Origin: a virus
Direction: 5' to 3' (one strand)
Length of the DNA stretch: 64,000 nt
IMG/VR virus record: IMGVR_UViG_3300008267_000011
Span: 1 to 64,000 of that record
Shown here piece by piece: positions 38,311-53,965 of the stretch. The translations under genes and the position numbers were made by a program. The first letter of the stretch is position 1; each line of letters starts with the position of its first letter. The notes beneath the pieces are model-generated. The model ran no database searches. It had not been told where the DNA came from and saw nothing but the letters and a program-made list of their open reading frames with translations.

Positions 38311-38825
38311 TACCAAGTAGAAACATAAGAAATACTCGTGTAACGATGCCAATTCTCAATATGTTGGTAGATGCACCTTTTTTGGAAAAGACGACGTTAA
38401 AAGCCTTGTACCCACAGTGGAAGGGAGAATCTATAGCGGAAATAAAAGAGAAGCATAGTGATAATCCGTATAGGGTAAGAATAGGAACGCCAAACACTGA
38501 TAAAGCGATGCAAGCGGATCACGCCTTGTTTATACAAAGTTACCTATCGTATAATCCAATCACAAAACAGCTCGAAAAGCGAGAGCTATTACCATATCGT
38601 AACGTTGAGAAAGTTTATATAGGGGAGCAGAGAATAGATGAGCATAATTACGGTAACTACACTCTATTCATAAACGGATCTATTGTAGCGGAGGACCTAA
38701 TTCTGTTGAATAATAAGCAATCTTTATTGGAGATAATAAAGAAGTTGACGGAAGAGGTAGCAGAGTTACGGGTAGAAGTTCACAAATTACACACTCAAAC
38801 CAAACAACAACCTATTTATAGATAA
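38307..38825 (+). CDS. Hypothetical protein with C-terminal coiled coil (172 aa)
   Basis: It overlaps the previous stop by four bases. Residues about 20-60 contain LVDAPFLEKTTLKALYPQWK, and about 60-135 are mixed alpha/beta. The last 35 residues form a heptad-rich helix (LLEIIKKLTEEVAELRVEVH), suggesting oligomerisation. The coupling to a large tail protein suggests an assembly chaperone or attachment factor; no homology is recognised. Its stop codon overlaps the following ATG. Confidence 0.6.
   Translation: MIPSRNIRNTRVTMPILNMLVDAPFLEKTTLKALYPQWKGESIAEIKEKHSDNPYRVRIGTPNTDKAMQADHALFIQSYLSYNPITKQLEKRELLPYRNVEKVYIGEQRIDEHNYGNYTLFINGSIVAEDLILLNNKQSLLEIIKKLTEEVAELRVEVHKLHTQTKQQPIYR
38813..38819 (+). 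promoter_or_regulatory. Candidate late promoter TATTTAT
   Basis: The heptamer lies within the last codons of the preceding gene and ends 5 bases before the ATG at 38825. Confidence 0.55.
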
Positions 38826-41038
38826 TGAGTTCGTTATCAAAATTTATAGTAGAGTCCCTTCTCAAGGAAGCGGGTGAGCAAACAACAGTTCTGTTCCCTG
38901 GAGGATTCAAGCCACCTCATGGAGGACATCTGGAGTTAGCAACACGCTACGCCGAGCAGCCTAATGTTGGGCAAGTTATCATACTCATTGGCCCTGAGCC
39001 AAGAGAAGGTATTACTAGAGACCAAAGCATTGCTATATGGAGAGAGTTAACTAAGAACAACAGCAAAATTCTTATCCAAAAAACCGAAGTAAACAGCCCG
39101 CTAGCAGCAGCATATAAGTTTTTAGAGACAGCTAAACCGGGATCCTATGCACTTGCAGCAAGTTCAAAGGGAGACGACTACAAAAGAGTCCAGCAATTTG
39201 TTGCAGGACACCAACCTGGAGCAAAGTACGCAAAAGAAGGTGTGGAAGTTGTAGAGCTTCCGTTGGATACTAAACCGTTAGTCTACAAAGATAGGTCACC
39301 AAAAGCAGAAAAGTATGTACCAGGAAAGAGTGAGAATGGAAAGGGAGTTAGCGCTAGTATTTTGAGAGCTGACTTAAAGAATGGAGATCAAGAAGCTTTT
39401 GCAACAAACTATCCAAACGTAGCAGACAAAGGAACTCTTGATAGAGTGTTTGGTATTTTAAAAAAAAAGCTATCTGAAGAGATCCAACCTAGCGATTTGT
39501 TTTCCAAAATGAAAATGAGATTTAAAGACTTCCTTCAAAAAGTCAATCAAGAAAAAGAGGAAACAAAGCAAGCATTCACCCTTATCGCACAGGCAGCCCA
39601 AGGGAAAAGAAAACTCACTCCAGAAGAGCAAAAGCAGGTTGGAGAGCAAATGAGAGATGTTCTTAAAACAATGGGAATTGGAGCAGCCACAATGCTACCA
39701 GGAGGAACGATATACTTCTTAATAATCAAACTATTGAAATTGGAAAAATACACAATGCCATCGTCTTTCATAACCGAAAAGGTGCAATTAAATGAGGGTG
39801 GTGGAGCAGGTCACTTAGCTCATCCGTATGAGGACTTGGAGCTAACCTTCGCAGACATTAAGGAAATGATAAAGGCTGCCTTATCAGGCAAACTAGAATA
39901 TGCACAAGAAAAGTTAGACGGTCAAAACCTATTAGTTACTTACAAGGATGGCAGAGTTAGAGCAGCAAGAAACAAAACTGAGCTCAAGAATTATGGCCAA
40001 GAAAGTAAGACAATTGAACAAGTAGCCGAGAAATTTGCAGGTAGAGGAGCTATACAGGCAGCCTTTGTTGAAACTATGCGTGACTTAGAGTCAGCAATTA
40101 ACAAGCTAGACAAGACACAAAAAGAAACTTTCTTCAAGAATGGACAGAGGTTCATGAACTTGGAGATCCTCTATCCCGACACACAAAACGTGATTCCTTA
40201 TGGAGCAACTTTAATTAGAATGCACCACTTTAAGGAGTATGATCAAAATGCAAAAGAGGTTGCAACAGATAACAAAGGCGTAGAGTTGCTTCAAAGAGCA
40301 TTCGACAATGTACAGGCACAAGAGTCTGATCAAAAAACCTTTGAAATCGGAGTCACAAACCCAGCAACAATTAAGCAAGATGCAGACTACGCTAGCCAAG
40401 AAAAGCAATTCATTGCCATGGCTGATGACGTTAAGCGAAAATATAACCTTGGCGATGAGACTAAGGTGAGTGAGTATGTTAAAAAATACTGGACTGACTT
40501 TGTCAAAGATAACGCAGAGCGTTACAATTACGAAGTTCCTACAGATGTACTAGATATGGTTGTAAATCGTTGGGCATTTACTGACAAATCCATCTCTTTA
40601 CCAAACGTAAAAGCTAAAATAGCTAATGAAGAGTTTGCAAGTTGGTTTATCAACTTTGACAAAGGATCAAACGTAGAAGAGGTTAAAAAAAGAATACTGA
40701 GACCTATTGAGCAGTTGTTCCTAAAATTAGGAGTTAGGGTGTTAAAGAACATTGAGAACCTAACAGCAGTTAACCCAAACGACTCTACAAAAAAGATTAA
40801 GCAAAGCGTATCTGCAGCAATCAGAGGAATCCAAGACGCAATCAACAACGAAACTATTGCAGACAACGATAAGGCAATTAAGTTTTTAAGACGTGAATTG
40901 GGAAGATTAAAAGACATTGGAGGCTTTGAAGCTATTGTTCCGACTGAGGGGGTAGTATTTAGATATAAGGGTAAGCTGTATAAGCTTACTGGAGCCTTCG
41001 CACCCGTTAACCAATTATTAGGCTATTTAAGATTTTAA
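38825..41038 (+). CDS. Nucleotidyltransferase / LETM1-like / RNA-ligase fusion with capsid-targeting-like N-terminus
   Basis: The protein has 737 residues. (1) The N-terminus MSSLSKFIVESLLKEAGEQ ends in two [L/I]-x-E sites (after E10 and E15) and resembles the T4 internal-protein tag MKTYQEFIAEA. (2) About 20-215 is a HIGH-type nucleotidylyltransferase of NMNAT/cytidylyltransferase class: GGFKPPHGGH with H32 and H35, and VSASILR near 175. (3) About 260-320 is a hydrophobic LETM1-like stretch (GIGAATMLPGGTIYFLIIKL). (4) About 325-737 is a ligase domain: nucleophile Lys in KLDGQN near 363, FMNLEILYP, TEGVVFRYKGK and YKLTG. It could adenylylate NMN and seal RNA, and may be packaged in the head. 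Substrates are not shown. Confidence 0.8.
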   Translation: MSSLSKFIVESLLKEAGEQTTVLFPGGFKPPHGGHLELATRYAEQPNVGQVIILIGPEPREGITRDQSIAIWRELTKNNSKILIQKTEVNSPLAAAYKFLETAKPGSYALAASSKGDDYKRVQQFVAGHQPGAKYAKEGVEVVELPLDTKPLVYKDRSPKAEKYVPGKSENGKGVSASILRADLKNGDQEAFATNYPNVADKGTLDRVFGILKKKLSEEIQPSDLFSKMKMRFKDFLQKVNQEKEETKQAFTLIAQAAQGKRKLTPEEQKQVGEQMRDVLKTMGIGAATMLPGGTIYFLIIKLLKLEKYTMPSSFITEKVQLNEGGGAGHLAHPYEDLELTFADIKEMIKAALSGKLEYAQEKLDGQNLLVTYKDGRVRAARNKTELKNYGQESKTIEQVAEKFAGRGAIQAAFVETMRDLESAINKLDKTQKETFFKNGQRFMNLEILYPDTQNVIPYGATLIRMHHFKEYDQNAKEVATDNKGVELLQRAFDNVQAQESDQKTFEIGVTNPATIKQDADYASQEKQFIAMADDVKRKYNLGDETKVSEYVKKYWTDFVKDNAERYNYEVPTDVLDMVVNRWAFTDKSISLPNVKAKIANEEFASWFINFDKGSNVEEVKKRILRPIEQLFLKLGVRVLKNIENLTAVNPNDSTKKIKQSVSAAIRGIQDAINNETIADNDKAIKFLRRELGRLKDIGGFEAIVPTEGVVFRYKGKLYKLTGAFAPVNQLLGYLRF

Positions 41039-41039
41039 T

Positions 41040-41345
41040 ATGAAACTAAAAAAATTAATTCCTCTAGAGGAAAAGAAAGAGGCGATAGCCTCATCACCAG
41101 CAACTAACCTAACTCTTCACTTTGACAAAGGCTTTCAAGCTGTAGGTGAAGAAGGTACTCCTGAAGCAAACTTTACTATTAGCATCAGTAGTGTTGGTGG
41201 AAAGGAGTTCTTTCGTGGGGTAGGCGATAGTGCTGAAGCTGATAAAATTACAGAGGGTGTTAAGTTGGAATTACGCAGAGCAATGCGTAAGTTCGATAAA
41301 CACGTTCAGCATATACTAGATAAATACAAGTTTCATACAAGATGA
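41040..41345 (+). CDS. Small tagged protein MKLKKLIPLEE (101 aa), putative internal head protein
   Basis: It starts one base after the ligase-fusion stop. The N-terminus MKLKKLIPLEEKKEA is nearly identical in pattern to MKLINLIPLREA (45.1 kb) and LKLKDLIPLREA (52.9 kb), with a possible prohead-protease site L-E-E. The remaining 85 residues form a small alpha/beta domain (LTLHFDKGFQAVGEEGTPEA; ITEGVKLELRRAMRKFDKHV) with no recognised function. It overlaps the next gene by four bases. Confidence 0.65.
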   Translation: MKLKKLIPLEEKKEAIASSPATNLTLHFDKGFQAVGEEGTPEANFTISISSVGGKEFFRGVGDSAEADKITEGVKLELRRAMRKFDKHVQHILDKYKFHTR

Positions 41346-41830
41346 GTTATTACGTTACGACCAACAAAAAATCCTTTACAGAGCATTCTGAAGGCGAAGT
41401 CTGGGAAGAGTCAGGCAAGACATGGACTATTCGAAATGGTGTCAAGCGCACCGTGTCTAAGATGGAATCTTTCCGCAAACAAATTATTACTCCAATCGCA
41501 TGTCCACACTGTGGAATGAAGATGGAAAGTCCAGTGCACAAGTGGGCTTGGAACACACATAAGATGTGTTTTAATTGCGTTGTAGACATGGAACATGAGA
41601 TTATGAAGGTAGGTAGACTTGAGGAGTATCAAAACGCTCTATTTAAGGCAAACATGGAATCTTTCTATGGAGACCTAGAGCAGTTTGTTCAAGAGTTTGC
41701 AAAAGAAAAAACAACCGTTTTCACCGAAGATGGTGTAAAAGAGAACTGGGTTGATAACAGTGGTAAAGTGATAGAGGAGATAGGTAAGAAAGAATTAGAA
41801 GCACTAAAATCAAAAATTGAAGAGGTATGA
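41342..41830 (+). CDS. Zinc-ribbon hypothetical protein (162 aa)
   Basis: Residues 20-45 (WEESGKTWTIRNGVKRTVSK) lead into a zinc ribbon with C54/C57 (CPHC) and C76/C79 (CFNC). A long helical tail rich in Glu and Lys follows. I recall this GKTWT..NG..(Q/R)TV plus CPxC layout from T4-like marine phages, without assigned function. It lacks the hydrophobic [L/I]-x-E tag of its neighbours. It is coupled by ATGA overlap to the membrane GAF-like gene. Confidence 0.7.
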   Translation: MSYYVTTNKKSFTEHSEGEVWEESGKTWTIRNGVKRTVSKMESFRKQIITPIACPHCGMKMESPVHKWAWNTHKMCFNCVVDMEHEIMKVGRLEEYQNALFKANMESFYGDLEQFVQEFAKEKTTVFTEDGVKENWVDNSGKVIEEIGKKELEALKSKIEEV

Positions 41831-42438
41831 CGGATGCAATTTGGGTTGCAATAATCGGAGGGGTAATTGGGCCCGTAATTGTATTATCTATCAAGTGGTG
41901 GTTTGACCATAAGATGGGTAAGAAAAAGACTGATATGGTCACTGAGGCGTTGTTAGTTGGAGACTTGATCACTAACAAATTAGACTCAGTTAAGGAAGAG
42001 TATGGAGCAGACCGTGTATGGATTAGTCAATTTCACAACGGTGGTCATTTTTATCCAACCGGAAAGAGCATAGCTAAGTTCAGTATCTTTTATGAGACTG
42101 TATCAGCAAACGCACCATCTCTCCAACTCAACCTAAAAAACATTCCAGTAGCACTATTCTCAAGAAGCTTCAATCAACTACTATCTCACAACATAATTCA
42201 CATTGAAGACTTCAAAGATGAGACTGTAGCAACTTATGGATTAAAGTACTTTGCAGAAGAGTATAAAACAAAGTCGCAATATTTATATGCGATAAAGAGC
42301 TTTGAAGGAAAGTTCATAGCTATTTTAGGGATTGACTACACAACTAGAAAGCACAAGCTAACCCATGAAGATGATGATGAGCTAATGAGAATTGCAACAT
42401 CGCTTGGTGGAGTACTAGCAGGACATTTAAAGGTATGA
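41827..42438 (+). CDS. Membrane-anchored GAF-like domain protein (203 aa)
   Basis: Residues about 4-24 are a transmembrane helix (AIWVAIIGGVIGPVIVLSIK) followed by a basic stop-transfer. About 45-200 reads as a GAF/PAS-like sensory fold: DRVWISQFHNGGHFYPTGKS, FSIFYETVS, then YLYAIKSFEGKFIAILGIDY. GAF domains bind small ligands such as cyclic nucleotides. No output domain is attached, so it may sense or sequester a ligand at the host membrane. It overlaps the genes on both sides by four bases. Confidence 0.65.
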   Translation: MTDAIWVAIIGGVIGPVIVLSIKWWFDHKMGKKKTDMVTEALLVGDLITNKLDSVKEEYGADRVWISQFHNGGHFYPTGKSIAKFSIFYETVSANAPSLQLNLKNIPVALFSRSFNQLLSHNIIHIEDFKDETVATYGLKYFAEEYKTKSQYLYAIKSFEGKFIAILGIDYTTRKHKLTHEDDDELMRIATSLGGVLAGHLKV

Positions 42439-42959
42439 CAAACGAAGAATCAAAAGGGCTTTGGGCAAACATACGAGCTAAAAGAGCACGTGGTGAGAAG
42501 CCTGCCCGTAAAGGTTCAGATGCCTACAACAAAGCAGTAGCAGCTGCTAAAAAGATCAACGCTACAAACGAAGAGCGTGAGGAAGAAAAAGACAGACCAG
42601 CACAAACAATTACAACTGGAACAAAGGCAGCAATGCCAGTAGGTTGGTACGAAACTACAATGTGCGAGACTTGTGCAATTGCTCTACTAGAAGACATTAA
42701 AGCTGGTAAGTTTCCACTTACAGAAGCCGAGTACCAAGGACGTAAAGTTCCACTTGGCAAGCCTATGAGAGGCGATGTCAAGAAGTTCAAGGTATATGTC
42801 AAGAAGGGAGATAAAGTTGTTAAAGTTAACTTTGGAGACCCTAACATGAAAATAAAAAAGTCAAATCCAGAAAGACGTAAATCATTCAGAGCAAGACACC
42901 GTTGTGCCACTCCAGGTCCAAGATGGAAAGCTCGTTACTGGTCTTGTAGAAAATGGTAA
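42435..42959 (+). CDS. Conserved phage protein with FGDPNM...RARH...ARYWSCRKW C-terminus (174 aa)
   Basis: The N-terminal 35 residues (GLWANIRAKRARGEKPARKG) and the C-terminal block (VNFGDPNMKIKKSNPERRKS, then FRARHRC and ARYWSCRKW) are both familiar to me as short modules recurring in T4-like and other large phages, often fused to different partners. The middle has CETC (C-x-x-C) and a basic segment. The strong positive charge suggests nucleic-acid or scaffold contact. Function unknown. Confidence 0.7.
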   Translation: MTNEESKGLWANIRAKRARGEKPARKGSDAYNKAVAAAKKINATNEEREEEKDRPAQTITTGTKAAMPVGWYETTMCETCAIALLEDIKAGKFPLTEAEYQGRKVPLGKPMRGDVKKFKVYVKKGDKVVKVNFGDPNMKIKKSNPERRKSFRARHRCATPGPRWKARYWSCRKW

Positions 42960-42965
42960 TCAAAC

Positions 42966-43547
42966 ATGATTAAGTTAGGAAAAATACTACAAGAGGCTTC
43001 TAAGACTGGAGCAATGACTGGAACGCAGGAAAGAGAGCTTAGCACAGGCTTACGTAGCATACATTGGAAGCATGCGGATTTTGAGCGTTATGCAATAAAC
43101 AGCTCCACACCTCACAGTACTATTAACTTTGGTGGATGTGGTATATTTGCAAAGTTGCTTTATTACAATATGCGCAAATATTTAAACATAACACCAGAAA
43201 TCATTTGCATTGACCTAGATGAGCATCAGATAAGTCCAGGGGAAATTAACGATTACAAGACCGTACAGGAGTATAATGAAGACGGCAATATGTGCATACA
43301 CATAGTGTTAAAGTTAGGCGATAAGTACATAGACTCATCAGGAATACATGCTTTTTCTTGGTTTGAGCAACAAGTGTATCGTCATCCTCTTTGTCAACAA
43401 GAAGGAATGACAATACAAACATTAACTAGATGGTGCGCATCAAGCAACAGCTGGAACCCTACATTCAATAGATACAACATCGGAGACATAAATGACGATA
43501 TGGTCAAAGTGATGAAATTTGCAAAAAAAAGCGGAATAAAAAAATAA
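42966..43547 (+). CDS. Papain-fold-like Cys-His-Asp protein with N-terminal tag (193 aa)
   Basis: The N-terminus MIKLGKILQEASKTG has the tag pattern with an L-Q-E/A site after E10. The body resembles a papain-like or transglutaminase-like fold. Candidate nucleophile C58 sits at the start of a helix (NFGGCGIFAKLLYYNM), H112 in a strand (MCIHIVLKLGDKYID) and D123 nine residues later in YIDSSG. The order Cys-His-Asp with these contexts is typical of the superfamily (cysteine peptidases, amidases, acyltransferases). If packaged and injected it could act on a host protein at once. Neither activity nor packaging is demonstrated. Confidence 0.65.
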   Translation: MIKLGKILQEASKTGAMTGTQERELSTGLRSIHWKHADFERYAINSSTPHSTINFGGCGIFAKLLYYNMRKYLNITPEIICIDLDEHQISPGEINDYKTVQEYNEDGNMCIHIVLKLGDKYIDSSGIHAFSWFEQQVYRHPLCQQEGMTIQTLTRWCASSNSWNPTFNRYNIGDINDDMVKVMKFAKKSGIKK

Positions 43548-43553
43548 CTAAAC

Positions 43554-44573
43554 GTGCCATATAAAGTTAAAAAGCAAGGAGACAAGTACGTGGTATACAA
43601 AAAAGATACTGGTAAACGTGTAGGCGCTACTGCTGGAAACAAAGAAGCATTACGAAAGTATATGGCAGCCTTGCACATAAACACTAAAGAATCGACAATG
43701 AAATTAAAAAACCTTCTTCCCGAAGACGCAGCCACAGACGTCCAAGACCTTATTAAAAACGTATCTAACTACGAAGAGTTTGTTAATAAACTAGGTCAGT
43801 TAGCGCAAGACCCTAAAGTACAAGCTTTCTTGAAATCTGGAAAAGCAGACGGAGATCAGACAGATGATAAGTTTACAGCAACATCGAAAGCGATTCCTGT
43901 AAAAGAACTAAGACCAACTCAAAATGAGATTGACGTAGACGGATCGCTAAAATGGCCTCTAACCAAACCTGACTCACTCAAAAACTGCTTACAGAAAGGA
44001 CCAATAACAATTAAAGCACCAGTTGTCACATACAATGGAGAGTTTATTATAGACGGTCACCACAGATGGAGCCAACTGTACGCCATGAACAAAGAAGGGC
44101 AGATCAATTGCGTAGATTTAACAGGACCTAAGATGGACCCAATCCAAGTACTAAAAGTAGTTCAGCTTGCAATAGCAGCTGACCTAGGTAAGGTACCAGT
44201 AGCTACAGTCAAGGGAAATAACTTACTTAAACTCGATGGTAAGCAAGTAGCAGAGTACGTAAAGAAGACTATTACTGGAGATTGTGTAAAGGTATTTAAT
44301 ACAATGCGTAGTGCTGCATTAGGCAAACTCGATCCTAACAGCATAGCAGGTAAGGTGATTGTTCCAAACGTCATGGAGATGAAAAAAACATCACAACCAG
44401 CACCAGGAGCACCAAAGAGAGATGTAATGCCTCAGACAGACGATGCTACAAACGCTATGAGTATGATTGCAAAAGGTGCAGTAAACTACAACGATCCTTA
44501 CGTAGCTGAACAAAAATTACGTAGAGCAATTCGCAAAGCAATATTGCAAGAAGTCAAAAGACTAAAAAAATAA
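43554..44573 (+). CDS. ParB-like nuclease-domain protein with leading MPYKVKK module
   Basis: It starts with GTG (339 aa). Residues 1-45 are a stand-alone-type module (PYKVKKQGDKYVVYKKDTGK, then KEALRKYMAALH) that I recall as a separate small protein in other phages. An in-frame ATG at 43698 begins MKLKNLLPEDAATD, a tag like its neighbours with an L-P-E/D site, so a shorter product is possible. Residues about 120-230 are ParB/sulfiredoxin-like (GEFIIDGHHRWSQLYAMN near 162-179). The C-terminus is basic helix (LRRAIRKAILQEVKRLKK). A DNA-binding or nuclease role is possible; an internal head protein is inferred. Confidence 0.7.
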   Translation: MPYKVKKQGDKYVVYKKDTGKRVGATAGNKEALRKYMAALHINTKESTMKLKNLLPEDAATDVQDLIKNVSNYEEFVNKLGQLAQDPKVQAFLKSGKADGDQTDDKFTATSKAIPVKELRPTQNEIDVDGSLKWPLTKPDSLKNCLQKGPITIKAPVVTYNGEFIIDGHHRWSQLYAMNKEGQINCVDLTGPKMDPIQVLKVVQLAIAADLGKVPVATVKGNNLLKLDGKQVAEYVKKTITGDCVKVFNTMRSAALGKLDPNSIAGKVIVPNVMEMKKTSQPAPGAPKRDVMPQTDDATNAMSMIAKGAVNYNDPYVAEQKLRRAIRKAILQEVKRLKK

Positions 44574-44601
44574 GTTTAACCAAACCCCACGTAAATGGAA
44601 G

Positions 44602-44814
44602 GTGATAGTAGACAACAAGAAAATATCGAAACAGACCTTAGCGACCTGGTGCATGATGCTGGCTCTATTCTTCAATCCTCTTGGATTCGACGTAGTCCAG
44701 TACTGGCTAATTGCCTTAACTGGGAGTCTATGGAGCGCCAATATTGCTTTGTATTGTGTGGCGGGACTATTCTTTGGGCTATCCATCTTGCTACGCTGTT
44801 TATCTAAACAATGA
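44602..44814 (+). CDS. Two-helix membrane protein (70 aa)
   Basis: The GTG start at 44602 gives MIVDNKKISKQTLATW, then two hydrophobic helices (about 14-36 and 44-64) separated by LTGSLWSA. A competing frame at 44595 (70 aa) was rejected. I recall similar small proteins with LFFNPLGFD and a terminal FFGL(S/Y) helix in marine T4-like phages. Holin or inner-membrane accessory are possible roles. It ends two bases before a TATTTAT element. Confidence 0.65.
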   Translation: MIVDNKKISKQTLATWCMMLALFFNPLGFDVVQYWLIALTGSLWSANIALYCVAGLFFGLSILLRCLSKQ

Positions 44815-44815
44815 C

Positions 44816-44822
44816 TATTTAT
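44816..44822 (+). promoter_or_regulatory. Candidate late promoter TATTTAT
   Basis: The heptamer ends 4 bases before the ATG at 44827 and begins one base after the preceding stop, leaving no room for a normal leader. Confidence 0.6.
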
Positions 44823-44826
44823 TAAC

Positions 44827-45105
44827 ATGAACACGAACCCAAAAACATTAGTAGCCGTAAAGTGGGCCGACCTAAAGACATCGTCAGACTTAACAGATTT
44901 CATATTAGATCAAATGCAAGACGGTGATCAAAACGCACAAAGCTATATAACAAGACAATGGTTAGCAGGCACACTCACAGCATTAAAGGATCTTGATTCT
45001 ACAATTGAAGATGAGGAAGACTTTGATCCAAAGCTAACAAGAGAGCTTGCGGAAGTAGCAAAGGTCGTTACCGCAAAAGGAATACAAATAATTTTAGTAG
45101 AATGA
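44827..45105 (+). CDS. Hypothetical protein (92 aa)
   Basis: A helical acidic protein (TDFILDQMQDGDQNAQSYIT; DSTIEDEEDFDPKLTREL) without known motif. It is the first gene behind a candidate late promoter and overlaps the tagged 45.1 kb gene by four bases. A small head-assembly or core function is possible from context only. Confidence 0.6.
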   Translation: MNTNPKTLVAVKWADLKTSSDLTDFILDQMQDGDQNAQSYITRQWLAGTLTALKDLDSTIEDEEDFDPKLTRELAEVAKVVTAKGIQIILVE

Positions 45106-45509
45106 AACTGATCAACCTAATACCTCTAAGAGAGGCAGACGAGCCAACTTCACCAGAATTGATCGCTACTCCTTACTTCCGTGAATTTCAAACAGCTCAT
45201 GGATACAAGCCATTGTTTAAGTACTTAGGTACAAAGAGCGAGGAGATGATCTTTGTTGCTGACTTAACAGAATTTGGCATGCTAGATTTGATCATCAGCG
45301 ATGCAAAGCTTGTTGCTAAGATAACGGAGAAGACTGCAATCTTTGGAATCGTATACACTCTAACTGGATTAGAGCGTTTTGATGCAACTGTTTGTGCAAT
45401 GAAACAAAAGGATGGTGTTATCGAGCGTATCACATTCGATAACAAAGACAAGAAAAATTTTGGAGCAGCACAAACAAACTTCTTAAAAGTAATTGAAGAC
45501 CAAAAGTAA
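45102..45509 (+). CDS. Tagged protein MKLINLIPLREA (135 aa), putative internal head protein
   Basis: The first 12 residues, MKLINLIPLREA, fit the tag family with an L-R-E/A cleavage site after E11, leaving a 124-residue mature protein. The remainder is a compact alpha/beta domain (EMIFVADLTEFGMLDLIISD; IFGIVYTLTGLERFDATVCA), not recognised. It lies in a run of ATG-overlapping genes just before the terminase. Confidence 0.65.
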   Translation: MKLINLIPLREADEPTSPELIATPYFREFQTAHGYKPLFKYLGTKSEEMIFVADLTEFGMLDLIISDAKLVAKITEKTAIFGIVYTLTGLERFDATVCAMKQKDGVIERITFDNKDKKNFGAAQTNFLKVIEDQK

Positions 45510-46197: not shown

Positions 46198-46515
46198 ATG
46201 CGTATAAAAGAATCACAATTTAGAGCACTTGTTCGTAGAGAGATTAAAGCTCTTTTGGAAGCTAACGAAGAAGAGCCAGAAATGACTGGAGCTCCAGAAG
46301 CAGGCGCTGAAGAACAACCAGAACCAGAACAAGAAGAGGTTAGCAAAGCTACAAGAATGGCACAAAAGCTTGTTGAGAAGATCAAACAAGATAGCGAACT
46401 TACATCAGCTGAGTCTATCCAGGATATGTTTGTTGTGTTTATTGAATCAATGGGATTCAGCAACGAAACAAAGCTTAGAATTTTACAAAGCGTTAAATCA
46501 GAAACGATCCGATGA
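46198..46515 (+). CDS. Acidic small protein with SQFRALVRREI N-terminus (105 aa)
   Basis: The N-terminus RIKESQFRALVRREIKALLE is an amphipathic helix ending L-L-E/A. It is related to the start of the 12.7 kb protein (LSQFKSMLRELIREEV). An acidic, Pro/Ala-rich low-complexity stretch (EEEPEMTGAPEAGAEEQPEP) and a C-terminal helical domain follow. The composition resembles prohead core proteins of T4-like phages. It overlaps the next gene by four bases, upstream of the terminase. Confidence 0.65.
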   Translation: MRIKESQFRALVRREIKALLEANEEEPEMTGAPEAGAEEQPEPEQEEVSKATRMAQKLVEKIKQDSELTSAESIQDMFVVFIESMGFSNETKLRILQSVKSETIR

Positions 46516-46883
46516 AAACTTCGCATATAATTAAGCGTCTGCAAGAAGATACAGCTTACCAAGAGTTCTTTAAAAAGGCTATGGATAAGTTTGGTATTAG
46601 TTCAATTGGTGATTTAGATGGAGAAAAGAAAAAGCAATTTTTCAACTACATCGACAAAAACTACACAGCTAAGGTTGAAGAAGGTTATATGCCAAATGAT
46701 AGCAGTATCTCAAGAGAGGTACAGGCCGTTGGAAATCAGATCGACACTATACTAGGAGACCTTAGTGCAAGATTTAAAGTACCAAGCCAAGACTTGTCCA
46801 AGTTAGCAGATCTTATTTGGGACTACGCTGATGTATATGCAGAATCTCGAATTGAAGCCTTAGAAGGCGATAGAAGTTTCTAA
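46512..46883 (+). CDS. Small tagged protein upstream of terminase (123 aa)
   Basis: The start MKTSHIIKRLQEDTAYQEFF carries a possible L-Q-E/D site after E12. The middle (FFKKAMDKFGISSIGDLDGE, then KKKQFFNYIDKNYTAK) is a helical module I recall from several marine T4-like phage proteins. The C-terminal 50 residues are helical and acidic. By position it could be a small terminase-like factor (gp16), but it lacks a recognisable DNA-binding motif, and the tag argues for a head-core protein. Confidence 0.6.
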   Translation: MKTSHIIKRLQEDTAYQEFFKKAMDKFGISSIGDLDGEKKKQFFNYIDKNYTAKVEEGYMPNDSSISREVQAVGNQIDTILGDLSARFKVPSQDLSKLADLIWDYADVYAESRIEALEGDRSF

Positions 46884-46900: not shown

Positions 46901-48475
46901 ATGTCAGAAAAGACCTTAAAAGAGATCATTAAGGAGGAGTACGTTAAGTGCGCTACTAATCCTGGGTACTTTATTAACAAGTACTGCATGATCCAACATC
47001 CAACGAGAGGAAAGATACCTTTCCACTTATACCCATATCAGGTAACTACGTTGGATGACTTTATGAAGTTCGATAGAACAATCGTACTAAAGTCTCGTCA
47101 GCTTGGCATCAGTACGCTTATTGCAGCTTATAGTCTATGGTTGATTCTTTTCCATAGCGATAAGAACGTGCTCGTAGTAGCGATTGATCAAAACACATCC
47201 AAGAACCTTGTAACAAAGGTTCGAGTTATGTTTGACAACTTACCAAGTTGGTTAAAGATGAAATGTGTAGAGAGTAATAAACTCTCAATGCGATTATCAA
47301 ACGGTTCTCAAATTAAAGCAGTAGCAAGTACAGGAACATCAGGACGTTCAGAGGCACTATCGTTGGTTATTATTGACGAGGCAGCTTTCGTAGATGGAGC
47401 TGAAGAGTTGTGGGCATCCTTGCAACAAACGCTATCTACTGGAGGACAGGGTATCCTATTATCGACTCCAAATGGTACTGGTAACTTTTTCCATAAGATT
47501 TGGATTAAGGCAGAGGCTGGAGAAAATAAGTTTAAGACTATTCGCCTACCTTGGCAAGTGCATCCAGAAAGAGACCAAGAGTGGAGAGATAGGCAAGACG
47601 CTGAGTTGGGTCTCAGATTAGCAGCACAAGAGTGCGATTGCGACTTTAGTAGTTCGGGTAATACACTAGTGGATCCTGGATTAATACAATGGTACTTGGC
47701 AACATATGCACAAGAACCAGTAGAGAGGAGAGGTGCAGACCAAAGCTATTGGTTATGGGAACAACCATCAATGAGCAAGAGCTATATTGTAACAGCAGAC
47801 GTTGCTCGAGGTGATGGATCCGATTACTCAGCATTTCATGTAATTGAACCAGAAAGCTTAACTCAAGTAGCGGAGTTTAAAGGCCAATTAACAACAAAGG
47901 ATTTTGGAAACATGCTAGTAAACGTAGCTACGGAGTGGAATGATGCATTGCTGGTAATAGAAAATAACAACGTAGGTTGGGCAACCATTCAACAAGTTTT
48001 AGATAGAGGCTACAAAAACCTATACTACACATACAAGAGCGACGTATTAGACTCAGACGTCTTCTTAGCAAAAGGATACGACTTAGTCAGCAAGATTGAT
48101 ATGGTTGCTGGATTTACAATGTCACATAAGGTCAGACCACTTGCAATTAGTAAGTTTGATTTGCTAACCCGCGAAAAAAGCATTATATTCAGAAGTAAGC
48201 GATTTATGGATGAGTTAGCTACTTTCATTTGGAAAGAGGGCAAAGCTCAAGCAGCAAATGGATATAATGACGACTTAGTAATGTGTATGTGTCAGGGTAT
48301 TTGGGTTAGAGATACGGCTTTAAGATTAAGACAAGCTGGTATTGATATTACAAAGGCATCTCTTAACGCATCAAAGAGTTCAGCAACGCTTTACTCTGGA
48401 ACAACGTTCAGGTCAAGTAACCCATGGAAGCAGAATGTCCAAGGTCGCGATGAAGATTTAACGTGGTTATTGTAA
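46901..48475 (+). CDS. 17: Terminase large subunit, gp17-like
   Basis: The protein has 524 residues. The ATPase domain has the P-loop variant KSRQLGIST (64-72), Walker B LVIIDE (155-160) and coupling motif LLSTPNG (187-193). The nuclease domain has D in TADVARGDGSDY near 300, E in LLVIENNNVG near 350 and DD in GYNDDLVMC near 455. The motor packages DNA into the prohead and cuts concatemers. The P-loop has Ile-Ser where T4 gp17 has Lys-Thr (SRQLGKT), a form also used by other terminases with the basic residue at the loop start. The leader is A-rich with no TATTTAT, so it is probably transcribed from 46175. Confidence 0.93.
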   Translation: MSEKTLKEIIKEEYVKCATNPGYFINKYCMIQHPTRGKIPFHLYPYQVTTLDDFMKFDRTIVLKSRQLGISTLIAAYSLWLILFHSDKNVLVVAIDQNTSKNLVTKVRVMFDNLPSWLKMKCVESNKLSMRLSNGSQIKAVASTGTSGRSEALSLVIIDEAAFVDGAEELWASLQQTLSTGGQGILLSTPNGTGNFFHKIWIKAEAGENKFKTIRLPWQVHPERDQEWRDRQDAELGLRLAAQECDCDFSSSGNTLVDPGLIQWYLATYAQEPVERRGADQSYWLWEQPSMSKSYIVTADVARGDGSDYSAFHVIEPESLTQVAEFKGQLTTKDFGNMLVNVATEWNDALLVIENNNVGWATIQQVLDRGYKNLYYTYKSDVLDSDVFLAKGYDLVSKIDMVAGFTMSHKVRPLAISKFDLLTREKSIIFRSKRFMDELATFIWKEGKAQAANGYNDDLVMCMCQGIWVRDTALRLRQAGIDITKASLNASKSSATLYSGTTFRSSNPWKQNVQGRDEDLTWLL

Positions 48476-48483
48476 GTACCACA

Positions 48484-48490
48484 TATTTAT
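48484..48490 (+). promoter_or_regulatory. Candidate late promoter TATTTAT
   Basis: The heptamer ends 18 bases before the portal ATG at 48509, in a 33-base gap after the terminase gene. Confidence 0.65.
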
Positions 48491-48508
48491 CTAAAAGCGC
48501 TTTAAAAT

Positions 48509-50317
48509 ATGGCAGAGAACAATCCTTCTCTATTTCAGAGGTTACAGAGATTGTTTTCCACCGATGTTATCATTCGTAACGTTGGAGGGAATCAATTAAA
48601 AGTTATAGACGTTGACAAAGTACAGTCAAGTGGTAACATTGATCAGAATCGACGTGTAGATCGCTTCTCCCGTATGTATCAAAACATGCCGGGATTTTCC
48701 TATTATCATGGACAGCTTCACTTAGCTACTCGTCTAGAGTTGTTTAAGGACTACGAAGCAATGGACACAGATAGTATTATTTCATCCGCTTTGGATTTGT
48801 ACGCTGATGAGTGTACAACAAAAGATGAGATGGGTAATGTTTTAATTATCCGATCTCCAAATGAAAAAGTACAGAAGGTATTGCATAACTTATTTTACGA
48901 CATTCTAAATGTTGAATTTAACTTATGGCCTTGGACTAGAAACCTACTAAAGTACGGAGACTTCTTCTTAAAACTAAACATAGCAGATAAGTACGGTATC
49001 ATTGGTGTAGAGCCAATGGCAGCTTATGAGATCATTCGTGAAGAAAACTTTGATCCAGAGAACCCATCGAGAGTTAGATTCAAGAGAGATTTTTCTGCAC
49101 TAGCTGCAAGATCTCACGTCGTTAACACAGAGACTGAGGAGTTTGAGAACTACGAAGTTGCTCACTTCCGTCTATTAACGGACACAAACTTCTTGCCATA
49201 CGGACGTTCTCTAATTGAACCTGCAAGAAAGGTTTGGAAACAGATCACTCTAATGGAAGATGCGATGTTGATTCACCGTATTATGCGTGCTCCAGACAAG
49301 CGTGTATTTAAAATCGATATCGGAAACATTCCACCAAACGAAGTAGATGCTTACATGGAAGGAATGATCAACCGTATCAAGAAAGTTCCTTTTGTCGATC
49401 CTGAGACAGGACAATACAACTTGAAGTACAACATGATGAACCTACTTGAGGACTTCTACTTCCCAGTACGTGGAGGAGAGAGTGCAACAGCTGTAGAGTC
49501 TTTGGCGGGTGTACAATATGACAGTATCCAAGACATTGAATACCTTAAAGCTCGTTTGTTGGGATCATTGAAGATTCCAAAAGCTTTCCTAGGATTTGAA
49601 GAAGACATCTCAGGTAAGGCAACACTAGCATCACAAGACTTTCGTTTTGCTAGAACAGTTGAGCGTATTCAACGCATTATTGCTAGTGAGCTTTACAAGA
49701 TAGCAATCATTCACCTTTACTCACAAGGATTTAACGACCAAGACCTAGTTGATTTTGAACTAGAACTGACTGTAGGATCATCCGTATACGAAAAAGAAAA
49801 GGTTGAGATTTGGTCAAGCAAAGTTACCCTAGCTGGTGATATGGTTGACAAAAAGCTATTTAGTCGTCAATGGGTATATGAAAACCTATTTGGTATGTCC
49901 GATGATGAGTTCCTAAAAGAACAAGAGAGAATGGTTCAAGATTACAAATTACAATTTCGTCTTGAGCAGATTAAAACAGAAGGTAATGATCCAGTTAAGA
50001 CAGGAATGTCCTTTGGTACTCCACACGACCTTGCATCACTATATAAAGGTAATGGAGGAGTTCCAGGTGGGTACGATGAGAAGATGCCTGAAGGAGGCTG
50101 GCCAGGTGCTGGACGTCCAGAGGAATCAGGTACATATGGTACACATAAGCACCCATTAGGTTGGGATCCTTTGGGAAACAAAGGAAGAAGGGTTAATGAA
50201 GAGTTTACAATGTTTATTAGAAATTTGAAAGGGAGTGCATTGAAGCAGACAATTGGTAACACATCTGAAATTTCAGAGCCAGATTTGCTCTCAGAGTCTA
50301 ACATTTTAAACGATTAA
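48509..50317 (+). CDS. 20: Portal protein, gp20-like
   Basis: The 602-residue protein follows the terminase, as expected of a T4-type portal. Typical stretches are SRMYQNMPGFSYYHGQLHLA, then LFKDYEAMDTDSIISSALDL (early clip/wing region), YGRSLIEPARKVWKQITLME and AMLIHRIMRAPDKRVFKIDI. YLKARLLGSLKIPKAFLGFE lies in the crown-proximal region. The C-terminal 90 residues are Gly/Pro-rich and flexible. The dodecameric portal is the DNA gate, nucleates prohead assembly and binds the terminase. Confidence 0.93.
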   Translation: MAENNPSLFQRLQRLFSTDVIIRNVGGNQLKVIDVDKVQSSGNIDQNRRVDRFSRMYQNMPGFSYYHGQLHLATRLELFKDYEAMDTDSIISSALDLYADECTTKDEMGNVLIIRSPNEKVQKVLHNLFYDILNVEFNLWPWTRNLLKYGDFFLKLNIADKYGIIGVEPMAAYEIIREENFDPENPSRVRFKRDFSALAARSHVVNTETEEFENYEVAHFRLLTDTNFLPYGRSLIEPARKVWKQITLMEDAMLIHRIMRAPDKRVFKIDIGNIPPNEVDAYMEGMINRIKKVPFVDPETGQYNLKYNMMNLLEDFYFPVRGGESATAVESLAGVQYDSIQDIEYLKARLLGSLKIPKAFLGFEEDISGKATLASQDFRFARTVERIQRIIASELYKIAIIHLYSQGFNDQDLVDFELELTVGSSVYEKEKVEIWSSKVTLAGDMVDKKLFSRQWVYENLFGMSDDEFLKEQERMVQDYKLQFRLEQIKTEGNDPVKTGMSFGTPHDLASLYKGNGGVPGGYDEKMPEGGWPGAGRPEESGTYGTHKHPLGWDPLGNKGRRVNEEFTMFIRNLKGSALKQTIGNTSEISEPDLLSESNILND

Positions 50318-50330
50318 CCGAACTAATACA

Positions 50331-50337
50331 TATTTAT
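50331..50337 (+). promoter_or_regulatory. Candidate late promoter TATTTAT
   Basis: The heptamer ends 6 bases before the ATG at 50344, in the 26-base gap after the portal gene. Confidence 0.6.
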
Positions 50338-50343
50338 TACTAG

Positions 50344-51213
50344 ATGAAAAAATCGAGCCACAACAAAATTAAGAATACAATAATCTTGTTTGAGTTGCTT
50401 ACAAGACAAGTAGCATCCGATACGCTGAAGGGTGTCGAAAAGTCGCCTGCATTAACCATCATTAAGAACCACTTCAAGTCCAACTCAGCACTAGGAAAGG
50501 AATTGGTAATGTATCAGACGTTGGTAAACGAAAGCTACAAAAGTAAGGCTAAGGCAACTTCGTTGATGAGTACTGTAGTTGGGTTAAGAAAGAAGCTAAC
50601 TAACGAATCTCTAAAAAAAGAGAAGTATGAATTGATCCGCGAGATCAAAAAGCATTACGATCTAGCAGCCTTCTTTAATACTAAGATTCAAAGCTACAAA
50701 CTATTTGCATCAATATACAGAGTATTTGAAGGTGTATCAGTAGCACGTGCAGCTGAGTTAGTCGATAGTCGTTTTACGATTATTGAGCACTTGACTCGAA
50801 CAAAGCAAAAGACTGCAGAGGACGGATCAGCTATCGTACTTAATGAGTATAAGAAGCAGGATCAGGATGTTCGTTTACTAGCGTATCAGTTAATGGTTGA
50901 TAAGTTTAATGCAAAGTATGCAGACCTTTCACCAAGACAAAGAAACATCCTAAAGGAATACATCAACAACGTATCAAACACTGATAACCTAAGAGAGTTT
51001 ATGCTTAAGGAAGCATACGCTTTGAAGTTGGAATTACAGAAGCAAGCAAAAGCTGTTACTGATAAGGTTGTTAAGATTAAACTTAACGAAGCTGTTGGTT
51101 TGATGAAGAAGTACGAAAAGACAAAGAGTGTTAAAGAGCACAACGTGCTATCACTTTTATTATACCATGAACTACTAAAAGAGCTAAGACATGCGCAAAA
51201 AGGATCTAAGTGA
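50344..51213 (+). CDS. Helical head-cluster protein of unknown function (289 aa)
   Basis: An all-helical basic protein (KKSSHNKIKNTIILFELLTR at the start; REFMLKEAYALKLELQKQAK later). It lies between portal and prohead protease, where T4-like phages keep prohead core genes (gp67, gp68). A head-core or portal-associated role is therefore plausible. It ends 23 bases into the next gene, indicating translational coupling. No enzyme motif is seen. Confidence 0.65.
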   Translation: MKKSSHNKIKNTIILFELLTRQVASDTLKGVEKSPALTIIKNHFKSNSALGKELVMYQTLVNESYKSKAKATSLMSTVVGLRKKLTNESLKKEKYELIREIKKHYDLAAFFNTKIQSYKLFASIYRVFEGVSVARAAELVDSRFTIIEHLTRTKQKTAEDGSAIVLNEYKKQDQDVRLLAYQLMVDKFNAKYADLSPRQRNILKEYINNVSNTDNLREFMLKEAYALKLELQKQAKAVTDKVVKIKLNEAVGLMKKYEKTKSVKEHNVLSLLLYHELLKELRHAQKGSK

Positions 51214-51940
51214 AGTACAGGCGTTTGTTAAAGAGCTGAACAAAAAGCTTAAAGAAGGTAGTACTACTGATGGAGCTGGTGGTTATCCAACTCCTAAAGC
51301 TTTTGTAGGTGATGAGGATGCTGAAGGAAGTAAGAAAGGCTTAGATGCCTCTACAGCATTTACTGTCAAGCCACCAAAGAAAAAAAAGTTCTTCATCGGA
51401 TATAAGGACCAGGGAGTTCACTTATCCGATATCAAAGAAGCAAACTACAGACAATTCAAAGAGGATGCTTCTATTCCAAACCACAAGAAAATCAATCAAG
51501 CCATTCTTGAGATCAATCGCAAGATTTCCGAAATTAATAAGCTATTTGAACACTCCATAAAGCTAAAAACAGAAACTCAAGTAGGAGATGAAAAATTGTG
51601 GAAGAAAACTAACGAAGCTTTGCTTAAGATTCATAGAAGATTAAACGAAGCAACTAAGCGTGTAAGAAACGTTGCAAATCTCAAAGAGATAGAAGTCAAT
51701 ACAGCTAAGGACAAGTTTCTAAAGATTTTTATGAGAGCTGGTATGACTATCGATGCACAAGACGTTGAGATAGTAAAGCAAGGCAACACCCACATTATCG
51801 ATGTGATGATAAATGGGGAACCTTCTGGATTTGATCTAGAAAACGACATCCTAACTTATCAAGGCTTTGATAAAGAAGTTGAGCTGGGAAATATTAACAG
51901 AGAACAAGAGGTTGCCGACAAGCTTAAAACAATATTCTGA
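51191..51940 (+). CDS. Head-cluster protein, possible prohead core component (249 aa)
   Basis: The N-terminus RKKDLSEVQAFVKELNKKLK, then EGSTTDGAGG, contains an L-K-E/G site near residue 22 followed by a flexible Gly-rich stretch. This is the pattern of a processed core protein. A helical middle (INQAILEINRKISEINKLFE) and a small C-terminal beta domain (QDVEIVKQGNTHIIDVMING) follow. It is located directly before the protease gene. Its function is inferred from position only. Confidence 0.6.
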   Translation: MRKKDLSEVQAFVKELNKKLKEGSTTDGAGGYPTPKAFVGDEDAEGSKKGLDASTAFTVKPPKKKKFFIGYKDQGVHLSDIKEANYRQFKEDASIPNHKKINQAILEINRKISEINKLFEHSIKLKTETQVGDEKLWKKTNEALLKIHRRLNEATKRVRNVANLKEIEVNTAKDKFLKIFMRAGMTIDAQDVEIVKQGNTHIIDVMINGEPSGFDLENDILTYQGFDKEVELGNINREQEVADKLKTIF

Positions 51941-51947
51941 TATTTAT
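51941..51947 (+). promoter_or_regulatory. Candidate late promoter TATTTAT
   Basis: The heptamer begins on the base after the TGA stop at 51938-51940 and ends 4 bases before the protease ATG at 51952. Confidence 0.6.
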
Positions 51948-51951
51948 TAAC

Positions 51952-52551
51952 ATGAAAACATTACTTATAGATTCAATCGGATGCCTCTCTGTAACCCCAG
52001 AGCAGATCAACGAGTCTATGCAACAAAACAACGGAAAGGTTATTCTATCCGGAGTTATGCAAAGAGCAGATGCCACTAACCAAAATGGCAGACAATACCC
52101 TGAGGATATCCTACGTCGTGAAGCTGACAAGTATAAGCAAGTATTTGTAACAGAGCGTAGAGCATTAGGAGAATTAGATCATCCAGACTCATCCGTAGTG
52201 AACCTACAAAACGTATCGCATAACGTAGTTGATCTATGGTGGAATGGTGGTGATTTAATGGGTAAGATAGAAATCCTAAGCACCCCATCAGGAAACATTG
52301 CAAAAGAGTTGCTAAAGTCCGGTATCCGTTTAGGAATCAGCTCTCGTGGCATGGGTAGTGTTAAAAATATTGGAGAAGGAAAGGTAGAAGTTCAAGACGA
52401 CTTTGAAATTGTTTGTTGGGACTTGGTATCTAATCCATCTACACACGGTGCATTTATGTCACCACTTAACGAATCGGTATCTCACGACAACAAGCAAAAC
52501 AAGTACACAAAGGTACACTCATTGATAAACGATATAATCTCAGTAATGTAA
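51952..52551 (+). CDS. 21: Prohead protease, gp21-like
   Basis: The 199-residue protein has the Ser-His arrangement of herpes-type prohead proteases: H77 in GELDHPD and S130/S131 in LGISSRGMGS. The conserved WDLVSNPSTHGAFM block follows at about 156-169. T4 gp21 matures the head by cutting scaffold, core, internal and capsid proteins after [L/I]-x-E. A PLNE/S site at 171-175 could allow self-inactivation near the C-terminus, as T4 gp21 is destroyed by self-cleavage. It is the enzyme expected to trim the tagged proteins in this window. Confidence 0.92.
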   Translation: MKTLLIDSIGCLSVTPEQINESMQQNNGKVILSGVMQRADATNQNGRQYPEDILRREADKYKQVFVTERRALGELDHPDSSVVNLQNVSHNVVDLWWNGGDLMGKIEILSTPSGNIAKELLKSGIRLGISSRGMGSVKNIGEGKVEVQDDFEIVCWDLVSNPSTHGAFMSPLNESVSHDNKQNKYTKVHSLINDIISVM

Positions 52552-52552
52552 T

Positions 52553-52918
52553 ATGAAACTCAAGAAATTATTAGAAGGACTAGAAGGAGATTCCCCTAAA
52601 AAGACCACAAACGAAAAGGCTGCGTTCATTCAGGAAGTGAAAAAGTTTAACGAATACGGATCGGTAATCTATCGTACTGAGGATCTACGTCGTGTTGCTG
52701 AGGAGATCAATGAGCTTGTGACTAAAGCAGAAGCAGTAACCCTACAAGAAACTCAAGACTGGTTTGACGAGATTACGGTAAAGCGTAATCTAAAGACTTT
52801 GCGTGAAGGCAATAAGCAGTTTGGACAAACTGTGAAGGAAATCTCTAAACTACAACAACGTTTAGAATCTTTGTACGAAGAAATGGGTCACAATCTATCA
52901 AGATACTATGAGCTTTAA
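52553..52918 (+). CDS. Tagged helical head-cluster protein MKLKKLLEG (121 aa)
   Basis: It starts one base after the protease stop. The tag-like start MKLKKLLEGLEGD has an L-L-E/G site after E8. The remaining sequence is helical (RRVAEEINELVTKAEAVTLQ; TVKEISKLQQRLESLYEEMG). With its location between protease and scaffold, this suggests a prohead core protein. It overlaps the next gene by eleven bases. Confidence 0.65.
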   Translation: MKLKKLLEGLEGDSPKKTTNEKAAFIQEVKKFNEYGSVIYRTEDLRRVAEEINELVTKAEAVTLQETQDWFDEITVKRNLKTLREGNKQFGQTVKEISKLQQRLESLYEEMGHNLSRYYEL

Positions 52919-53309
52919 AATACTCAAACTAAAAGACTTAATACCACTTCGTGAAGCTGAAGGTGACGAAGAGGAAGCTGGTGGTGGAAATCCATTTGCT
53001 GCTGCTGGAGGAGACGAGGGTGGTGCTGAAGGTGGTGACGATGCTGCTGCTGCAGATGATGCAGGAGGTGATGAAGCCGGTGCTGAAGGTGGAGAAGAAG
53101 GAGGCGAAGAGGAAACGGGAGATGCTAAGAAGCAGCCTGATTTAAAGTACCCTATTAAGTTCAATATTGGTAGAGTAAAAAAATACAACAATGCTGATTT
53201 TATTAGCAACCAAGGAGAATTAAAGAGCATCAACAGCAAGGGAATGACTGTAACAGTTCAACCAGACAATGTAGATGTGTTTGTGAATTTTAACGATATT
53301 ATCGACTAA
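52908..53309 (+). CDS. Acidic Gly/Ala/Glu-rich tagged core protein (133 aa)
   Basis: The start MSFKILKLKDLIPLREAEGD contains the same KLKxLIPLxEA tag as the 41.0 and 45.1 kb proteins, with an L-R-E/A site after E16. Residues about 19-68 are almost only Glu, Asp, Gly and Ala, as in prohead core proteins that are later degraded. The last 60 residues form a small folded domain (YPIKFNIGRVKKYNNADFIS; TVTVQPDNVDVFVNFNDII). The antisense frame opposite the acidic run is a composition artefact. Confidence 0.7.
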   Translation: MSFKILKLKDLIPLREAEGDEEEAGGGNPFAAAGGDEGGAEGGDDAAAADDAGGDEAGAEGGEEGGEEETGDAKKQPDLKYPIKFNIGRVKKYNNADFISNQGELKSINSKGMTVTVQPDNVDVFVNFNDIID

Positions 53310-53965
53310 TGAAACTGCAACCAATACTAGAAGGAATCCTTAGAGAGGAAGAAGATAAGAAGCAAATTGCAGCCATGGACCAAGCTATGCAATCAGCAGC
53401 TGCTGAACTTGCTAAGTTGTATAAGGATAATGAGGCTGAGATTAAACAAGATGTTGAGCAATCAGAAGAAGAGCTCAATGAGTCTTTAGGAGCAGTAGCT
53501 ATTATTGGATTTATCCTAGCTCTACCTAAAGTAGTGGAGTTGCTAGTTAAGGGAATAGGTAAAATCGTAGCTGTTTGGAAAAAGCTAGTTAAACCAGGAC
53601 AAGCTAAGGGTAACGAAGAGGAGTTTGCTCATAACATTATTGAGTTTACGCACAAATGGCACAAGACCTACATTAAAGGATTGAAATGGATTCTACAGAT
53701 GTCAGGAGTATTTAAGAAAGCAAACATTACTGGAGATGCTGCACAGATGAAAGCAGCAGAAGCAATATACTATACAATTATTGCAGGACTAGCAATTTAC
53801 TCCGGAGTGGGTGCAGTAGGCGCATTTAAAGCAGCAGCTCAAGGAGCAGCACATGGCGGTAGCTTTTCGCTAGGAGCATTTGAAGCAGCTATGGCTTCTG
53901 TTAAGACGGGAGAAGTTGGAGAGTTTCTTGGGAAACTTGGACTAAAGGCTGCAAAAGCTGCATAA
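53309..53965 (+). CDS. Head-cluster protein with membrane-like helices and tag (218 aa)
   Basis: It shares one base with the upstream stop. The start MKLQPILEGILREEEDKK has sites I-L-E/G (after E8) and L-R-E. An acidic helix follows, then a hydrophobic segment (AVAIIGFILALPKVVELLVK, about 65-85). A second Ala/Gly-rich hydrophobic region is at about 150-190 (YYTIIAGLAIYSGVGAVGAF). Hydrophobic internal proteins could contact membrane during injection. The function is unknown. It is followed by the longest intergenic gap in the window. Confidence 0.6.
   Translation: MKLQPILEGILREEEDKKQIAAMDQAMQSAAAELAKLYKDNEAEIKQDVEQSEEELNESLGAVAIIGFILALPKVVELLVKGIGKIVAVWKKLVKPGQAKGNEEEFAHNIIEFTHKWHKTYIKGLKWILQMSGVFKKANITGDAAQMKAAEAIYYTIIAGLAIYSGVGAVGAFKAAAQGAAHGGSFSLGAFEAAMASVKTGEVGEFLGKLGLKAAKAA

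Follow-up and report, generated by a model that had tools for sequence, protein, structure and literature searches.

The internal proteins IPI–IPIII and Alt of phage T4 have unrelated bodies and a common short N-terminal peptide, spelled MKTYQEFIAE, with hydrophobic residues at positions 4 and 7 followed by [LI]8-x-E10; in IPIII, residues 4 and 7 serve targeting and residues 8 and 10 processing, the protease gp21 cutting after L/I-X-E, and aspartate at position 10 prevents this processing (PMC9026906). About ten Ips are reported from the variable ip loci of T-even phages, of which Ip1–3 each inhibit distinct GmrSD restriction enzymes (PMC12373910), and phages phiKZ and SPN3US process many inner-head proteins at x-x-E with a diverged gp21 homologue (PMC5694885). 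Here we describe a broad variant of the T4 system in the virus of IMG/VR record IMGVR_UViG_3300008267_000011 (94,415 bases), whose bases 1–64000 are the stretch analysed (the window). Between positions 38825 and 53965, beside a gp21-family protease, many unrelated proteins begin with a short tag ending in [LI]-x-E. A sequence-only reading of the window had taken these tags for capsid-targeting signals, a claim that is partly supported: the tagged proteins beside the protease and strong comparative evidence favour it, and we consider it very likely that the tags act as T4-like capsid-targeting propeptides for a broad, shifting range of proteins.

As in T4-type capsid targeting, the N-terminal peptides are ~7–20 residues long and end in [LI]-x-E, a gp21-family protease is encoded in the genome, the unrelated proteins have the tag alone in common in family comparisons, and the major capsid protein (MCP) carries a matching maturation site. 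The hydrophobic 4/7, [LI]8-x-E10 register is likewise that of IPI–IPIII and Alt. The spelling differs (MIKLxxILxE or KLxxLIPLRE), a helix-type tag is interchangeable with the short one, cargo is of many types including enzymes, some cargo is fused with internal sites, and packaging here is predicted from the genes. The T-even ip loci offer a second likeness, variable genes recognizable by a shared leader, but T-even Ips are small anti-restriction proteins in the literature, whereas the tag here sits, in a lineage-specific spelling, on at least 70 body families. With phiKZ and SPN3US the likeness lies in many proteins processed (here by prediction) by a gp21 homologue; the propeptides there are mostly >100 residues long, without a shared short tag (PMC5694885).

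Two patterns were counted at gene starts: a loose motif ([LI]-x-E with the glutamate at residue 7–16) and a strict class I tag (K-L-x-x-[LI][LI]..E). The loose motif occurs at 23 of the 83 gene starts of the record, against 7.8 expected on shuffling the first 40 residues (0/2000 shuffles reach 23) and 9.3 predicted from internal windows, confirming the enrichment for which the sequence-only reading had proposed such a scan. It is concentrated within 38825–53965 (10/18 genes versus 13/65 elsewhere; Fisher p 0.005), where the strict tag is found in 5/18 genes versus 0/65 elsewhere (p 0.0003; 0.07 expected by shuffling). Some matches outside this region are chance or paralogues; three paralogous proteins at window positions 3696, 4700 and 6224 begin MSSLxxGLxEF and explain part of the excess there. 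Relatives were defined as 80 IMG/VR loci with 67–94% protease identity, gene starts in most being set by a simple ORF caller; 14 of 15 large loci show a loose-motif excess at nominal p <0.05. Among named phages aligned with good coverage, Microcystis phage Mel-JY01 and Flavobacterium phage immuto have the closest proteases (each ~56% identity). In the immuto head region the motif heads 15/30 ORFs (4.0 expected), with predicted cut sites (slash) at MRLLELLRE/A, MKKLIRIVE/A and MKKVMGNLADLLLEE/S, or one residue earlier in the last. The loose motif is not enriched in T4 (27 versus 23.0 expected) nor in the Syn9 head region (3 versus 3.9), and therefore is weak evidence alone; we dropped its counts as stand-alone evidence, stricter patterns and comparison being needed.

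A pattern derived from T4 (M..[hydrophobic]..[hydrophobic][LI].E; hydrophobic 4 and 7, [LI]8, E10) matches only 4/203 ORFs in T4 1–127 kb: ipII, ipIII, gp24 and 61.1. The last (NC_000866, 18966–19130), annotated as hypothetical, begins MKTFKEFIKE/D and fits the targeting register. In the clade of the window the pattern is present in 13/203 families, or 7.5 per one-member-per-family draw versus 0.22 when shuffled (~34-fold). Scanning IMG/VR DNA for MIKLxxILxE, we found that 137 of the 138 matches listed stand at the start of an ORF ≥40 aa long (median 145), whereas a permuted pattern of equal composition gave 100 matches in the entire database, 17 of which begin such an ORF (median 13). The tagged bodies fall into at least 70 unrelated families, family counts in these scans being minima from an unranked sample. 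Among the matches listed, 46/120 tag loci include head-gene homologues versus 7/100 permuted-control loci, and other T4-register tags occur in 70/1393 ORFs versus 3/1031. Pfam assignments of MIKLxxILxE cargo include ATP-grasp/RimK, NUDIX, ADP-ribosyltransferase, SET, GNAT, zeta-type kinase, NT5C, 2'-5' RNA ligase, M23 peptidase and lysozymes. The cyanophage spelling, MKSFxxFLxE, heads at least 112 ORFs in at least 37 families.

The T4-derived pattern was fixed before cyanophage virion data were looked at, and the proteome comparison covered tags in the T4 register, with the helix-type tags outside it. Mass spectrometry identified 52 proteins in virions of S-CREM2 (PMC10665884, Table 3); that paper makes no mention of N-terminal tags, and its authors left contamination open. 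Two 50-kb stretches of this genome were covered, the compared class being detected proteins not assigned to shell or tail. Strict tags head 4/15 detected non-structural ORFs versus 1/126 undetected (p 4e-4): a SAM hydrolase (MKDFDSFLEE), gp13 (MKDLHSFLTE), an APH/ChoK-like kinase (MKRFDAFLTE) and a cytidylyltransferase (MKNFSSFLTE). Detected near misses are gp136 (MQTFSMFFSE) and the Cas9-like gp12 (RFASFMAE); in the latter, a nuclease encoded at 7704–10313 on the minus strand of S-CREM2 (L437), RFASFMAE/AA lies ~17 residues past the annotated start. For S-SCSM1 (PMC9602691), where the GenBank record supplied the virion labels, the count is 1/12 detected versus 0/75 undetected, the tagged protein being the NMN adenylyltransferase (MKSFLQFLKE). 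The two phages together yield a pooled p of 9e-5, and five of the six tagged ORFs in their covered parts were detected in the particle. A literature search found no published virion proteome of immuto. To chance or compositional bias we assign next to no probability: [LI]xE in its loose form turns up often, and T4 overall shows no excess, yet this reading is excluded by the shuffled sequences and internal windows, by the permuted pattern in IMG/VR and by the virion mass spectrometry, and for class I tags the controls rule chance out.

All nine tag peptides listed in the sequence-only reading are present at the coordinates given there, with qualifications for three; the tags and head genes located below between 38825 and 56774 lie on the plus strand, which holds nearly all coding ORFs. 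Exact T4 register is found in two of the tags. MSSLSKFIVE/S (38825–38854; hydrophobic 4 and 7, I8, E10) heads a nucleotidyltransferase/ligase-like protein (38825–41038) with a second site, predicted from sequence, at LLKE/A (ending at 38869); MIKLGKILQE/A (42966–42995) heads a 193-aa protein and is kept in two relatives. For the 42966 protein, fold and family searches gave no significant match, and a cysteine-hydrolase assignment, considered for its invariant Cys58 and His112, is not claimed. Tags of the KLxxLIPLRE type are shifted in register relative to T4: MKLINLIPLRE/A (45102–45134) on a 135-aa protein and MSFKILKLKDLIPLRE/A (52908–52955) on an acidic low-complexity protein, a possible core protein; the tag core of the latter N-terminus, MSFKILKLKDLIPLRE, begins at residue 6. 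MKLKKLIPLEE/K (41040–41072) precedes a 101-aa protein, MKLKKLLE/G (52553–52576) begins the gene immediately 3' of the protease (possibly a prohead-core protein), and MKLQPILE/G (53309–53332), with a second site at LRE/E, begins a 218-aa protein. The tag-like MKLKNLLPE/D (43698–43724) is N-terminal only if an in-frame internal ATG is the start, the longer ORF (43554–44573) beginning with GTG at 43554. It precedes a ParB/sulfiredoxin-like domain that we name ParB-like because of its invariant DGHHRW motif, the fold and family matches being weak (Pfam E 0.017; Atu1540 E 0.18). The MKTSHIIKRLQE/D tag (46512–46547), on a 123-aa protein, also occurs as an internal motif in longer fused proteins of relatives and, by sequence, may partly belong to the domain.

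The earlier list was incomplete. It omitted a site within the 38825 protein, SSFITE/KVQLNE/GGGAGHLAHPYED (39761–39796; VQLNE/GGGAGH), which precedes the ligase-like (KxDG) module; it also omitted the tag MRIKESQFRALVRREIKALLE/A (46198–46260) on an acidic 105-aa protein and, with it, a second, helix-type class (class II) of up to ~21–26 residues that, by sequence comparison, is interchangeable with class I. Helix-type tags also escaped notice in the tail region, MKLSQFKSMLRELIREE inside the ORF at window 12618–13091 and MKKSDLHRIIREEIQDHLIEE at record 78357–78695, and such helices may have a wider use. The 38825 protein comprises an adenylyl/cytidylyltransferase-like domain (weak matches), a LETM1-like stretch and the KxDG ligase-like module; the LETM1-like residues 239–315, between the other two, match NCBIfam NF040639 at E 6.7e-8, below cutoff.

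Comparison with relatives shows the site conserved while the sequence before it changes. All 15 sequences compared in the 41040 family read L-x-E before KKEAI (P3 Leu, P1 Glu), with P2 taken by any of eight residues; L-[KQR]-E-[DE] is kept in 19/19 anchored relatives of the 46512 protein, [IL]-x-E in 28/28 matched relatives of the 52553 protein, and in 24 distinct relatives of the 45102 protein P3 is always [LI] and P1 Glu in 83%. Helices of the 46198 family differ in sequence and mostly end [IL]xE/A or [IL]xE/E. One body may carry different tags, nearly all ending in [LI]-x-E. The 52908 body follows KLKDLIPLRE/AEG here, MKLNKKQLEELVRRVAKSYIIE/ADK in L068, MRYGKSLLERHIRKIIKEYLRE/EEE in L064 and MKSTKKVNWNRISKSFKQYLKE/AEE in L054, with both tag classes seen among its relatives, and the 53309 body also has different tags. 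The ParB-like domain follows LLPE/D here, MGILKQLLKE/I in Mel-JY01, GLLTE/D in L049, DILSE/S in L073 and EYLNE/D in L044. Such swapping on constant bodies resembles recombination at gene starts, as would be expected if a shared leader cassette had spread as DNA and served translation or regulation while doing nothing as part of the protein. We hold this to be very improbable, since the tags are encoded with different synonymous codons, their residues vary while the hydrophobic register and [LI]xE are kept, and sites persist within fused proteins; the codon differences thus place selection at the protein level.

Fused cargo also bears on whether the site is cut. The ligase-like module begins at [LI]xE/GG in five lineages with different upstream sequences, among them LNE/GGGAGH here, LSE/GG in L042, LLE/GG in L057 and IAE/GG in Mel-JY01, and in the huge-phage record LR756500 it is a stand-alone tagged gene, MKFLKSYEEFLNENLILE/GGSYGH, with a T4-like tag. 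In L042 the module is fused to a 41040-type protein with LTE/EKEIVATAP at the joint; a separate ligase gene assigned to L042 was an error, the ORF entering from the locus edge, which leaves LR756500 as the clean stand-alone case. A blanket junction scan returned mostly contig-edge artefacts, and the junctions cited are those checked by eye. A further huge-phage locus, L090 (LR756508, 1001–3748), encodes a 915-aa ORF fusing ParB-like, nucleotidyltransferase and ligase-like modules that elsewhere are separate or fused in pairs. Homology between the window ligase module and a cyanophage MKSF-tagged KxDG protein was rejected (no BLAST match), leaving an analogy.

If the tags were amphipathic helices for docking to scaffold or shell and were never removed, [LI]xE would be part of the helix. 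Class II tags are indeed long helices, and some giant-phage head proteins retain regions cleaved off in relatives (PMC5694885), but P3 and P1 are fixed while P2 varies, and the site is kept at fusion junctions whatever lies upstream. One nucleotidyltransferase begins MKSFKTFLTE/GGNVF in L330 and MIKLKDILLE/GGNLF in L183, and as plain M/GGNVF in immuto, so that a natural start lies directly after the glutamate. Docking without cutting is accordingly an improbable account.

For the propeptide reading, the T4 precedent suggests that the amphipathic N-terminus would dock its protein on the prohead scaffold or core during head assembly, that the gp21-family protease would then cut after [LI]-x-E and free the body inside the head, and that proteins remaining there would exit with the DNA at infection. 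The tag behaves as a module, different tags standing on one body across phages and one tag on tens of unrelated bodies. Where neighbouring cargo genes have fused, the joint retains the cut site, and the protease would split the packaged polyproteins that would result. The components lie in a T4-type head module: terminase (46901), portal (48509), protease (51952), scaffold-like protein (54108) and gp23-type MCP (55158). The gp21-family identity of the protease named as the processing enzyme in the sequence-only reading is borne out (51952–52551; phrog_207 head maturation protease, E 1.4e-55), and this protein is the presumed cutter. The presumed tag receptor, by its inferred role, is the scaffold-like protein (54108–55130), with VLTE/GN 15 residues before a C-terminal RFxxLAGI helix; site and helix are conserved in relatives, immuto and Mel-JY01, whose scaffolds end [IL]xE/[SGV]..RFxxLAGI(I). 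Cutting at scaffold [IL]xE/[SG]N could detach core and shell from each other. The MCP (55158–56774) has a predicted maturation site, LIKE/GN (Glu54, bases 55317–55319), that aligns with FLTE/A of T4 gp23, the glutamate being invariant in relatives. The ParB-like cargo of L045, L049, L050 and L073 ends in a RAGIxK tail similar to the scaffold helix, and one immuto tag contains RMQKLAGIITE, sequences hinting at a docking peptide shared with the scaffold.

The tagged genes might instead be mainly prohead-core or scaffold proteins (gp67/68-like), with [LI]xE sites for degradation at maturation and no injected effectors; this is the rival we take most seriously, although we judge it unlikely. The 52553, 52908 and 53309 genes occupy the interval from protease to scaffold, and nearly all relatives have members of their families, which is why these three may be core proteins, like T4 gp67/68 by position and acidity, rather than injected effectors; the acidic, low-complexity 52908 protein in particular resembles gp67. 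A family search gave no match for the three. By contrast, 41040, 42966, 43698 and 45102 occur in some relatives and not in others, enzymes carry the tag elsewhere, and tagged enzymes are present in cyanophage virions. Core and cargo roles can coexist. The 'arsenal' of the sequence-only reading therefore fits the four variable genes and the enzymes of relatives better, but was drawn too uniformly in including the three possible core genes. On the analogy of T4 Ip1–3, counter-defence or take-over in the first minute is a candidate role for the variable tagged genes.

Several observations weigh against the propeptide reading. This phage is known from sequence alone, and its packaging, cutting and injection are steps that we infer. 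The strict tag is absent from most detected non-structural virion proteins (11/15 in S-CREM2, 11/12 in S-SCSM1), which means either that the sensitivity of the pattern is low or that there are other ways into the particle; the strict pattern is far from complete, many virion proteins being untagged. Fixed P3 and P1 with variable P2 is found at 5/57 internal head-protein triplets, all in the portal and its neighbours 50344 and 51191, versus 3/9 N-terminal ones; because internal [LI]xE triplets show the same signature, it does not alone prove cutting, and we do not use it as such proof. ParB-like homologues of Aeromonas phages 65 and avDM6, like the immuto nucleotidyltransferase, have no tag. 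The Mel-JY01 head region has no significant overall excess of the loose motif (6 versus 4.2 expected), and the MIKL-tagged cargo includes lysozymes and an M23 peptidase, enzymes whose place of action could be another part of the virion.

More broadly, we lean towards a delivery code of the T4 superfamily, in which a ~10-residue register with lineage-specific spelling (MKTYQEFIAE, MKSFxxFLxE, MIKLxxILxE, KLxxLIPLRE) and an interchangeable long-helix class would mark hundreds of unrelated enzymes and counter-defence proteins, including protease-split fused cargo, for packaging, cutting and injection. To our knowledge, the proteins injected at the start of infection are mostly unknown outside T4. 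The same kind of label on enzymes inside the particles of other phages means that proteins delivered with phage DNA are probably predictable from sequence. A short rule that recovers T4 IPII, IPIII and gp24, and that picked out six ORFs in the covered parts of two cyanophage genomes, five of them detected in particles, would enable prediction of injected effectors. It would also explain the recurring NMN adenylyltransferase, SAM hydrolase and kinases of cyanophage virion preparations, which their authors could not separate from contamination. The T4 targeting peptide is already used to load foreign proteins into heads, and lineage-specific peptides would bring this to other hosts.

Separately, TATTTAT occurs within 40 nt upstream of 14/84 genes (0.95 expected by shuffling), with coding-strand bias and often 4–6 nt before the ATG. 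Sites precede the starts at window 21758, 29007, 38825, 50344 and 51952 and at record 70247. By its sequence and placement the motif is a candidate late promoter with near-leaderless starts, unlike the T4 TATAAATA.

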